Below are positions 317 to 3,824 of a stretch of 21,563 nucleotides of DNA, in pieces. The DNA lies in IMG/VR virus record IMGVR_UViG_3300030328_000493, positions 1-21,563 of that record. One strand, 5' to 3'. A program made the translations under genes and the position numbers. This DNA comes from a virus. Each line of letters opens with the position of its first letter. The stretch's first letter is position 1. Below the pieces are notes generated by a model that did no database searches, was not told where the DNA came from, and worked only from the letters and a program-made list of their open reading frames with translations.

Positions 317-610
317 ATGGTTGGTAGACCACTTCATAAGCAAGAGTGTGGAGCCTATGCTCGTAGCACTGGACTGCCCTGTCGTGCTAAAGCACTGACT
401 AATGGAAGGTGTAGAAATCATGGTGGATTATCTACTGGAGCTAAGACAGCTCAAGGAAAATATAAAGCAATATTGAATTTAAAAAATGTTAAAAGAGAAA
501 CTATCGAGCATTATCGAAAGATTGCAGAAGGGAGAACCTCTCTCGAAGATCTGCAAGGACAAAGAGATGCCAGCAGTGACAACAGTCTATTCCTGGATGA
601 AAGACGATGA
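317..610 (+). CDS. HGG-motif phage protein, possible Cys/His zinc-binding
   Basis: This 97-aa protein contains the motif HGGLSTGAKTAQGK (residues 35-48). Many phages encode small proteins with an 'HGG.STG..T..G' motif near their terminase genes. Upstream of it are C11, C22 and C32, which with H35 could form a zinc site (inference). The function is unknown; its position suggests a link with packaging or DNA binding. ATG 317 is the only start available, because a stop lies in frame at 296-298. No Shine-Dalgarno sequence is visible. The family-like part ends near residue 57. The remaining 40 residues come from sequence that also encodes the start of the small terminase in another frame (125-nt overlap), so this tail may be non-conserved. 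Confidence 0.65.
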   Translation: MVGRPLHKQECGAYARSTGLPCRAKALTNGRCRNHGGLSTGAKTAQGKYKAILNLKNVKRETIEHYRKIAEGRTSLEDLQGQRDASSDNSLFLDERR

Positions 611-872
611 AGAACTAAAGAAACAGGTTATGGATGCAAGACAGCTTGGAGCATGGAGTTATCTAGATAGTATGCTAGAGCTGTTGCAACAAGACTGTGA
701 ACCACAACAAGTTCAGTGGAATAGAGAGAGACTACATCATGCAAGATGGATGAGTAGTAAACTATTAGCTGGTACATTTGGTGACAAGATACAGGCTGAT
801 GTCAAGACTGATGGTAACTTAACGATTGAGTGGGCAACACATGAGAAGACGGAAGAAGTATTGAGTAAGTAG
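486..872 (+). CDS. terS: Terminase small subunit (Sf6-like)
   Basis: A 128-aa protein with an N-terminal helix-turn-helix: 'GEPLSKICKDKEMPAVTTVY' followed by 'SWMKDDEELKKQ' (about residues 16-47). This matches the DNA-binding part of Sf6-type small terminases. Downstream come a helical oligomerisation-like region and 'HARWMSSKLLAGTFGDKI', typical of the family ('W...K..p..yGdk'). TerS recognises the packaging site and presents DNA to TerL, which is encoded about 900 nt downstream. The gene starts inside the HGG gene in a different frame. No good Shine-Dalgarno sequence precedes ATG 486, so it may depend on translation of the HGG gene. It is separated from terL by a hairpin-rich spacer and two small genes. 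The family call is by eye. Confidence 0.75.
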   Translation: MLKEKLSSIIERLQKGEPLSKICKDKEMPAVTTVYSWMKDDEELKKQVMDARQLGAWSYLDSMLELLQQDCEPQQVQWNRERLHHARWMSSKLLAGTFGDKIQADVKTDGNLTIEWATHEKTEEVLSK

Positions 873-1148
873 TGGGTAGTCTCCCATATACTATAAGCAT
901 CTGTGTGTTTACGCACACGCATCATGGACTGCGTTGATGACAGCATGACGTGCCACCTCACGTTCTTTGTTTTATTTTCTGTTGCAAATCCTGCGTACTT
1001 AGGAGGACTCCAAGTCTTATTACTATAAAAACGCTAGGATAAACGGTCAGGCCCTAACATTTTTTTACGGAATACCGACACCCCTATACCCCGAAATCGG
1101 GGCTGCGGTTACTAATATATATATAATAGGACATCAAGGTATCCATCG
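873..1148 (+). other. Noncoding spacer with five hairpins, downstream of terS
   Basis: This 276-nt gap has no convincing gene but several perfect or nearly perfect stem-loops. They are TGGG/CCCA (873-886); GTGTG/CACAC (903-918); ACGTG/CACGT (948-963), followed by a T-rich stretch that could make it a weak terminator; a 7-bp stem with one bulge (997-1015) containing AGGAGG with no start codon after it; and CCCCG-AAAT-CGGGG (1089-1102), inside an outer ACCG/CGGT pairing (1074-1109). Next comes an AT run with TATAAT at 1122-1127 just before the following gene. It could hold a promoter, a processing site or the packaging (cos/pac) site recognised by TerS. These roles are inference from position. 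Confidence 0.5.
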
Positions 1149-1337
1149 ATGGATGAAGAAGAACTAGAAAATTTACTAGCCATGGTCTTTTATGACGATG
1201 GCACTAAAAGCGTGTTTATAAACATCACAGGCTTTAGAAATAACATACATGGGAAAACTATATCTGATTGGGTTCTCAATAAGCTACACATAGAGCAAAT
1301 TGACATACCTTATGATGATAAACCCACGGTACATTAA
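1149..1337 (+). CDS. Small protein of unknown function
   Basis: A 62-aa acidic protein beginning MDEEELENLLAM that I do not recognise. It has no membrane segment and no metal-binding cluster. I accept it as a gene because its stop and the next gene's start overlap by one base (TAATG at 1335-1339), a usual sign of translational coupling, and because it fills the space between the spacer and the XF1762-like gene. An AAGG lies about 9 nt before the ATG, and a TATAAT-like sequence lies about 22 nt upstream, so it may be the first gene of a transcript leading into terL. Confidence 0.55.
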   Translation: MDEEELENLLAMVFYDDGTKSVFINITGFRNNIHGKTISDWVLNKLHIEQIDIPYDDKPTVH

Positions 1338-1792
1338 TGAAAGTAATTCCTATAACTATTAAGGCTGCAAAAGAATTTGTAGATAAACACCACAGACACA
1401 ATAAGGCCCCTGTTGGTGCTAGGTTTGCAATAGGCTGTTTATTTGAAAATGAAATAGTTGGAGTTGCAATAGTAGGTAGGCCCATTGCTAGACGGTTAGA
1501 TAATCAATTTACAGCCGAAGTTGTAAGGCTTTGCACTAAATTAAACGCACCTAGAAATGTTTGTTCTTTTCTATATGGAAGATGTTGGAGAATATGGCAA
1601 CAAATGGGTGGGGAAAAAATGATTACTTACACTCTTGAGAAAGAAAATGGACACAGTTTAAAAGCTGTAGGTTGGAAAATTTTAGGAAAAACTAAACCTT
1701 TTAAAGAAGGTAAAGGGTGGACAACAAGAAAAAATAGAGTTTACCAACCATTAGTCCATAGTGTTGCAAAAAATAGATGGGAGGTATCGTGA
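1337..1792 (+). CDS. XF1762-family protein (GNAT-like fold)
   Basis: A 151-aa protein that matches by eye the phage and prophage XF1762-type family. Its marks are an N-terminal 'KEFVDKHHRHNKAPVGARF' with the HHRH cluster at residues 18-21, 'VGVAIVGRPIAR' (42-52), 'EVVRLCT' (61-67), and a later 'ITYTLEKENGHSLKAVGWK'. The pattern of strands, an arginine-rich turn and a final 'S...GW' resembles the GNAT acetyltransferase fold. The substrate is unknown and acetyltransferase activity is not shown. It starts on the last base of the preceding stop codon and overlaps the terL start by 4 nt (GTGA), so it belongs to the terminase operon. Confidence 0.75.
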   Translation: MKVIPITIKAAKEFVDKHHRHNKAPVGARFAIGCLFENEIVGVAIVGRPIARRLDNQFTAEVVRLCTKLNAPRNVCSFLYGRCWRIWQQMGGEKMITYTLEKENGHSLKAVGWKILGKTKPFKEGKGWTTRKNRVYQPLVHSVAKNRWEVS

Positions 1793-3084
1793 AAGTAACA
1801 ATACCTTACGCCCCTCGTGATATACAAAAGGAAATCCACGAGAACTTTTCAAAGTATAGATGGGCAGTCATTACACTACATAGACGGTGTGGGAAATCCG
1901 TTTTATGTATTAACGAATTAATTAAACGAGCTTTAACGAATACTATGTGGAACCCACGGTACGCATACATCGGCCCTACTTATAAACAAACAAAAGCAAT
2001 TATATTTGACTATTTAAAACATTACGCTGGTGTCATACCTGGAGCTAAGTTCAATGAACAAGAGCTAAGTTGCACATTACCTAATGGTGCTAAAATAACA
2101 CTATTAGGTTCGGAAAACCCAGATAGCCTTCGTGGTTCTTACTTCGATGGTATTATTGTGGATGAGTATGCTCAGGTTAATCCAAGATTGTTTCCTGAGA
2201 TTATCAGACCTGCCCTATCTGACCGTAAGGGATTCTGTTATCTGGTTGGCACACCGCAAGGTATGTCAAATGATTTTTATGCAAAGTATCAGCATGGTTT
2301 AAAAAGTGATGACTGGTATGTAAAAGTTGCAAAGGCATCGGAAACTGGAATAGTCGATCAAGAAGAATTAGATGCTGCCTATTCTGTCATGGGTAAGAAT
2401 AAATTTAGGCAGGAATTTGAATGTGATTGGGTTGCTGCAATCGAAGGAGCTATATACGGAGATGCTATCGAGAAGATGGAAGGCCGTAAGCAAGTAACTC
2501 GTGTACCTTACGATCCAACATTTAAAGTTAATACAGCTTGGGATATAGGCGTATCTGATAAAACGGCAATTGTGTTTTTTCAGCAAATAGGTCGTACTGT
2601 TCAGATTATAGATTATTACGAAAACAGTAATGAGGGGTTGCCCCATTACATTCAGGTTTTGCAAAACAAAGACTACCTATACGACAAACACTATGGGCCA
2701 CATGACCTGGAGCAAAGAGAATTTACAAACAATAAATCAAGAAGGGAAATAGCATACGAGTTAGGCATACGCTTTAACATCGTTCCCAAGTTAAGTATAG
2801 AAGATGGAATACATTATACTCAACTATTGCTAAACCGTTGCTGGATAGATATGGAAAGTTGCAAGAAGTTATTAGAAGCACTACGCAACTATCATCGTAA
2901 ATTCAACGACACACTACAAACATTTTCAAATAAGCCTGTACACGACTGGAGCAGCCACGCTTGTGATGCTATGAGAGTGTTAGCAGTTGGGCTTGAAGAA
3001 GTGGATGATACTAGGAAATCACCACAACGAACCGCAATGAATTATTATAACCCTTTAGGAGATCAACGTGAGCAGATTATTTAG
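1789..3084 (+). CDS. terL: Terminase large subunit (packaging ATPase and nuclease)
   Basis: TerL cuts concatemeric DNA and pumps it into the prohead through the portal. The ATPase half shows a Walker A-like HRRCGKS (residues 31-37 from the GTG start), Walker B GIIVDE (121-126) and a coupling-type GTPQG (154-158). The nuclease half has an RNase H-like set of acids: D252 in 'AWDIGVSDKTA', D306 in 'HYGPHD' and D393 in 'SSHACDAMR'. I prefer the GTG at 1789 because GGGAGG lies just upstream and it makes a 4-nt GTGA overlap with the previous stop. An in-frame ATG at 1777 would add four residues and has no ribosome site. The length (431 aa) is normal for the family. The end overlaps the next gene by 17 nt. 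Confidence 0.95.
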   Translation: MKVTIPYAPRDIQKEIHENFSKYRWAVITLHRRCGKSVLCINELIKRALTNTMWNPRYAYIGPTYKQTKAIIFDYLKHYAGVIPGAKFNEQELSCTLPNGAKITLLGSENPDSLRGSYFDGIIVDEYAQVNPRLFPEIIRPALSDRKGFCYLVGTPQGMSNDFYAKYQHGLKSDDWYVKVAKASETGIVDQEELDAAYSVMGKNKFRQEFECDWVAAIEGAIYGDAIEKMEGRKQVTRVPYDPTFKVNTAWDIGVSDKTAIVFFQQIGRTVQIIDYYENSNEGLPHYIQVLQNKDYLYDKHYGPHDLEQREFTNNKSRREIAYELGIRFNIVPKLSIEDGIHYTQLLLNRCWIDMESCKKLLEALRNYHRKFNDTLQTFSNKPVHDWSSHACDAMRVLAVGLEEVDDTRKSPQRTAMNYYNPLGDQREQII

Positions 3085-3320: not shown

Positions 3321-3824
3321 ATGGGTAAAGTTAGTAAAAATAAAAGTTTTAATAAGGATCCTAATAAATTTAATAAACAGGGAACAAAATACTCTGGTAA
3401 ATTAGCTGGAGCTATTCAAAGAGCTAATCAAATGCACTACAACAGAAGTGTGGCTGGTAGATTAGAAAACGCTGCAAGAGAGAGTTTGCAGGCTGGTGAA
3501 GCTAAACAAATTAATCCGACAGCTGCATCTGTTCAGGCTCGTGGTCTTTTATTAGAAGGTAATAGAAGTAGTTTATTGCAAAACGCAAAACAAAATAAAT
3601 TAGATAGCAGTGGTCTGAATGAATTGGCACAAGCAAACAAACAACTAGGTTTCAATGAAACAGAGGGTATGGGGCCAATCGAGTCTGTTAAGTACCAGGT
3701 TACTAATCCTGAATTTAAAAAAGATTTAAAGAAAACAAGTGAACGACTAAGAAAGATACCATCTATTGGTAATATATTATTAAATGCCCTTGGAGTAGGA
3801 TCAGGAAATAAGTTGCTTGATTGA
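3321..3824 (+). CDS. Unknown 167-aa protein between terminase and portal
   Basis: I do not recognise this protein. The N-terminus is basic and asparagine/lysine-rich (MGKVSKNKSFNKDPNKFNKQ), followed by mostly helical, alanine- and glutamine-rich sequence. The end is more hydrophobic (IPSIGNILLNALGVGSG). There is no signal peptide. It starts 2 nt after the previous stop with only a weak ribosome site, so it is probably translated by coupling. Its end overlaps the next gene's TTG start by 8 nt. Its place among head genes suggests a minor virion or assembly protein, but nothing in the sequence proves it. Confidence 0.6.
   Translation: MGKVSKNKSFNKDPNKFNKQGTKYSGKLAGAIQRANQMHYNRSVAGRLENAARESLQAGEAKQINPTAASVQARGLLLEGNRSSLLQNAKQNKLDSSGLNELAQANKQLGFNETEGMGPIESVKYQVTNPEFKKDLKKTSERLRKIPSIGNILLNALGVGSGNKLLD

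Follow-up and report, generated by a model that had tools for sequence, protein, structure and literature searches.

The 276-nt gap between the small terminase gene (terS) and the operon of the large terminase gene (terL) is, at a rough probability of 0.5, a control region in which two conserved blocks, E and F, would form a late promoter that works with an activator and a third, block A, would be a separate TerS-linked packaging site (pac). The window, i.e., the whole stretch of DNA that was analyzed, comes from IMG/VR as a linear virus record with a length of 21,563 bases and is probably a fragment. It belongs to a marine phage whose TerL is 60% identical to the TerL of HTVC034P and HTVC010P, both of them cultured phages of SAR11, and whose portal protein is 61% and 60% identical, respectively, to their portals. 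The gap that the initial annotation had described between terS and the terL operon was confirmed and is the largest non-coding gap of the window: the chosen open reading frames leave 12 gaps (765 nt in total), and the two that follow it in size are 137 and 126 nt. The features are listed in the table below. Besides its Pfam match, terS matches phrog_1482 (E 1.8e-24) and the Sf6 gene 1 protein in the PDB (E 5.7e-08). The genes downstream of blocks E and F all have the same orientation and are separated by small gaps. The first of them, orf62, had no match in Pfam or PHROGs, and its homologues were located before terL in the relatives by tblastn. By the same method the Mom-like gene between orf62 and terL was seen in the window and in three other contigs and was absent from most relatives, so that it appears to come and go within the packaging operon.

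Features of the terS-terL region (positions in the window)
Feature	Position	Strand	Remarks
terS, small terminase (Sf6 type)	486..872	+	Pfam Sf6_terminase PF20901, E 1.4e-23
Non-coding spacer	873..1148		Between terS end at 872 and next gene at 1149
Stem-loops	873-886, 903-918, 948-963, 974-989, 1006-1016, 1017-1028, 1089-1102		At least 4 Watson-Crick pairs, loops of 3-8 nt
Block A	909..935		Conserved DNA just 3' of terS; candidate TerS-linked site (pac)
Terminator-like hairpin followed by T-rich stretch	947..964	+	May end the terS transcript; absent from most relatives
Block E, C-box (TATACCCCGAAA core)	1080..1098	+	Upstream half of the module; possible activator site
Block F, TATATATA box with TATAAT at 1122-1127	1113..1134	+	Proposed -10
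orf62, 62-aa gene	1149..1337	+	Proposed late operon starts with this gene
Mom-like DNA modification gene	1337..1792	+	Pfam Mom, E 3e-08; phrog_1384, E 7.3e-36
terL, large terminase	1777..3084	+	Pfam Terminase_6N, E 8.6e-09; phrog_2, E 1.5e-35

When positions 700-1500 were compared with phage records by blastn there was no match and therefore relatives were gathered through TerL and TerS (80 of 123 TerL relatives and 42 TerS relatives). Merging of identical spacers left 44 distinct ones. Clade 1 accounts for 35 of these, which were aligned; terL was present in 33 of the 35, and 11 non-redundant genomes of this clade, giving 55 pairs, were kept for the measurement of divergence. In these 55 pairs the mean divergence at the 4-fold sites of terL was 0.49, with gaps scored as differences in the spacer and not at the 4-fold sites. 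Block A (911-933), block E (1086-1096), and block F (1116-1131) diverged by only 0.20, 0.08, and 0.14, respectively, and two middle stretches of the spacer by 0.63 and 0.57; the values were 0.42 in 976-1010, 0.50 in 1097-1115, and 0.38 in 1132-1148. These block boundaries were chosen after the alignment had been viewed, but a column permutation without preset blocks singled out these three again at the 1% level. Block E reached this level when the windows were 8, 11, or 16 columns wide, F at widths of 8, 16, and 23, and A at widths of 16 and 23 and not at 8 or 11. Of the two observations that the initial annotation had named as refuting its proposal, genome ends mapped elsewhere and a freely varying spacer, the second was seen outside the three blocks, and the contigs place no genome end either here or elsewhere.

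Blocks E and F make up a module, ACCCC followed after about 23 nt by TATATATA, that lies upstream of orf62-terL. Searching upstream of terL for ACCCC, 20-28 nt, and TATATA, and choosing the pair with the spacing nearest to 23, we found the module in 24 of 27 representatives, one of which, L006, was counted only through a looser box (TATTTGA) that was added after L006 had been seen. The 24 include 10 of the 12 cultured SAR11 phages examined, HTVC010P-type pelagiphages that carry the same module in the same place before orf62-terL; the three in which it was not found are L060, HTVC028P, and HTVC106P. The form ACCCC-N20-26-TATATA[TAG] occurred exactly once, in the sense orientation and 255-994 nt before terL, in each of 12 genomes or long contigs, where 0.55 occurrences were expected over all 12 together, a motif drawn up largely on the same genomes in which it was later counted. 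When viral contigs were scanned with a stricter form, it matched a single time in each of 26 contigs, and all 26 were already among the TerL or TerS relatives. The TATATATAT run alone is not unique, as it has three further places in HTVC010P, two in HTVC034P, and one in contig G002, and the exact run is absent from contig G007. In L060, L063, and L075, between terS and terL, the reading frame of the orf62 homologue looks by eye to remain open far upstream, through an E-like stretch; the TATA box was not found in these relatives, and block E may be coding there.

The most probable explanation of this module is that it serves as the late promoter of an operon that would consist of orf62 (and the Mom-like gene), terL, the portal and capsid genes, and those that follow. 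The initial annotation had offered a control region for terL as the alternative to a packaging site, and it is this alternative that came out better supported, a promoter-like module being present before orf62-terL across the group. Its position before the late operon is conserved and in the sense direction (24/27 and 12/12 in the two counts), and the TATAAT within the conserved box resembles a -10 element, which host RNA polymerase would read. There is no -35 hexamer at 16-18 nt and a sigma-70 scan gave no site on the + strand of the spacer, and for this reason the module is not classed as an ordinary sigma-70 promoter and would probably be activator-assisted. The distance from the end of the C-box, ACCCCnAAA, to the TATA box is about 23 nt and not the 17 nt of a -35 hexamer, so that the C-box most likely replaces the -35 element and would be bound by an activator that the phage encodes. 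The position, the conservation, and the single copy in the genomes examined were observed, and the promoter activity and the activator are what these features would imply. Activator-dependent phage late promoters that are read by host RNA polymerase exist, for example in P2 and Mu. Like the module described here, those promoters have a -10-like box without a recognizable -35 and a conserved box at about the position of the activator, before a late operon. They differ from it in that the activator and the transcript start of the module are putative, and to our knowledge the C-box sequence matches none of the P2/Mu-type late promoters.

The choice of host RNA polymerase follows from a related phage, since Skadi-1 is reported to encode two transcriptional regulators but no RNA polymerase (PMC10504331); this absence is a report on Skadi-1, and the window phage is known from a fragment only. 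The promoters named for Skadi-1 are close to replication genes, and the transcription-related section of that paper names no late promoter for the structural genes (PMC10504331). In the portion of the open-licence literature that was available, no report was found of a conserved element before terL in pelagiphages, or of a late-gene control region or a packaging site in this phage group. We tentatively put forward a broader proposal, which we hold with much less confidence than the promoter reading itself, that the module represents an unnamed class of late promoter of the HTVC010P-type pelagiphages and their uncultured relatives, with a C-box near -40 for a phage activator, and that it is accompanied in one branch by a pac site beside terS whose sequence is kept as it passes between coding and non-coding DNA. 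A single conserved module before the terL operon makes the timing of late genes in the group directly testable.

The evidence on block A comes from clades 1 and 2. In clade 1, none of the reading frames that cross it is long throughout the 11 genomes (the one that varies least is antisense and open for 21-98 codons), and as far as can be told the block is non-coding there. In clade 2, terS is longer and the sequence that matches block A lies within its 3' end. When a matrix trained on clade 1 alone was tested against 200 shuffles per locus, the block A site was the best match in five of six clade-2 loci, with none or one of the 200 shuffles as good, and was missed in the sixth (L058). In the L060-type group the site was the best match in 3/3 loci but 56-61 of the 200 shuffles equaled it, and in the L077-type group it was the best in 0/3. 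Something like block A can be seen by eye after terS in both groups. Scores for these two groups from a matrix trained on the pooled groups were rejected, as the sites in question had been in the training set. Because the clade-1 matrix performed no better than chance in the L060 and L077 types, we claim block A for clades 1 and 2 only. A search allowing up to six mismatches did not find it in HTVC010P or HTVC034P.

That the sequence is kept both inside and outside a gene is most simply read as a DNA site linked to TerS, and our best guess is that block A would be a separate site at which TerS starts packaging; if it is indeed pac, it bears on how the group packages its DNA. As would be looked for in a pac site, it is a conserved sequence in or beside terS. 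The pac site of P22 is a 22-bp asymmetric sequence in the terS gene (PMC9611059), and block A resembles it as a short sequence in or beside terS. The P22 site lies within terS, whereas block A of the window lies outside it and is a candidate pac site. What the initial annotation had proposed, a packaging site in this gap, is thus retained in the form of block A at the 3' end of terS and given up in respect of the hairpins as its signal. In the HTVC010P-type phages the terS-like genes lie about 3 kb upstream of terL, and unlike in the window, genes on the opposite strand separate the terS-like gene from the module in HTVC010P, Skadi-2, and Greip. Matches to a TerS profile built in this analysis were observed at 32494-32967 in HTVC010P, 2100-2567 in HTVC034P, 546-1043 in Greip (L115), and 433-936 in Skadi-2 (L114). 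Their E values, from a search of few open reading frames, were 2e-17 to 4e-28, and a weaker match was seen in HTVC106P (9e-06 in the same kind of small set). These genes, which are annotated as hypothetical or DNA-binding, are probably the small terminases of the HTVC010P-type phages.

The array of hairpins that had drawn attention to the gap does exist, but in numbers near chance and not as something kept in relatives. Seven stem-loops were found in the spacer, three of them with 6-nt loops, compared to 4.3 +/- 1.6 in dinucleotide shuffles, and 27 of 300 shuffles reached seven. Three had 5 pairs against 1.3 expected (37/300 shuffles reached three). With G-U pairs allowed there were six against 5.0 expected (108/300 reached six), and three with 6 pairs against 2.5 expected (138/300 equal). 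Their number is therefore near chance, with a mild excess at best. The fold of the spacer is about as in shuffled sequence, with z of -1.22 for RNA of the + strand, -0.86 for RNA of the - strand, and -1.15 for DNA of the + strand. In the 22 of the 35 clade-1 spacers that were used for the pairing and structure tests, the five hairpins tested keep 60.2% of their pairs compared to 61.3% with shuffled partners, and when the partners were slid by 1-3 columns 25-53% of the pairs were formed. RNAalifold predicted no conserved pair in these aligned relatives. The hairpins are evidence neither for a packaging site nor for control of terL. The AGGAGG of the initial annotation is present at 1001-1006, and the + strand of the window has seven copies of it in all; it is not conserved, and beside it only part of GGACT is conserved among the relatives; the AT run was confirmed at 1113-1128. 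Terminator-like sites occur on the + strand in 10 of the 44 relative spacers against 2.4 expected, in rows that are not independent, and on the - strand in 2 of 44 against 1.4 expected. The counts are a hint that terminator-like hairpins upstream of the module may stop transcription of terS, although most relatives lack such a site.

Several other explanations of the gap were weighed against a late promoter with a separate pac site. That the spacer codes for a structured RNA such as a leader, a riboswitch, or a ribozyme is highly improbable, for although the window has several stem-loops, their pairs are kept no better than in shuffles, none is predicted as conserved, and a search of the spacer against Rfam gave nothing at the gathering score, its sole match being at chance level (E 3.3); a tRNA search also gave nothing usable. 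An origin of replication in E/F that unwinds at the AT run would fit one conserved AT-rich module per genome in 12/12 genomes or long contigs, but the module precedes structural genes and not replication genes, and we consider such an origin improbable. GC skew does not help it: a minimum near the module was found in genomes rotated to start there, and as the total skew is positive the minimum falls near any chosen start, so that it is only what the rotation would produce and gene direction is not separable from an origin. The strongest of the competing explanations, possible although we doubt it, is that block A is no more than the decaying remains, now functionless, of a terS that was once longer. 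The match of block A is indeed coding in the longer terS of clade 2, and the flanks of the block in clade 1 are full of insertions and deletions. However, the block itself has diverged by 0.20 where the 4-fold sites have diverged by 0.49 and the neighboring stretch by 0.63 in the same 55 pairs, and there is no frame through it that is long in all 11 genomes.

It is also unlikely, though a little less so than an origin, that the spacer holds a cos site or another fixed end at E/F or over the whole gap, cut by TerL with the boxes as cutting signals. The location between terS and terL is suited to such an end, much as the cos site of lambda is near the terminase genes (PMC9611059), and 3 of the 54 contig ends counted from within terL to 4 kb upstream of it fall within 30 nt at E/F (L046, L025, and L040). 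These three ends, however, are at different bases, and two contigs that break at E/F, G014, which ends there, and G013, which starts there, overlap by exactly 127 nt. The names of these two share one sample number, the other ends have no overlap, and the 127 nt look like the k-mer of an assembler. The clustering of contig ends at E/F was consequently dropped as a sign of a genome end, the overlap accounting for one of the three. In addition, the region is unbroken in five contigs of 34.7-37.7 kb, each of which has terL at a different place, and E/F is kept in phages that have about 3 kb between the terS-like gene and terL. Unlike at the cos site of lambda, no fixed genome end at the spacer is supported by the contigs. 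The differently permuted contigs are compatible with headful packaging from a pac site and only that; the PDB matches of TerL are to the 4zni group, from which the packaging type does not follow. For Skadi, a direct terminal repeat of 125 bp is described in 4 of 9 circular assemblies (PMC10504331). In the Skadi records OP131293-OP131302 terL lies at differing places and on differing strands, with which a terminal repeat is hard to reconcile, and the repeat may be an assembly overlap like the one of 127 nt.

The spacers of near relatives differ in ways that were also observed. L003 and the window have 99% identity in TerS, and the L003 spacer at about 1017-1115 resembles L084 and not the window. 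It looks as if a segment of the spacer had been swapped between near relatives, with the conserved blocks as the joints of recombination. Six of the 44 distinct spacers (L084 at 3365-3600, L038, L044, L085, L043, and L103) have about 230 nt extra after terS, which by eye form one open frame ending in TPIY and a stop, and a trace of the end of this frame (TCTCCCATATA) is seemingly left at 880-890 of the window.
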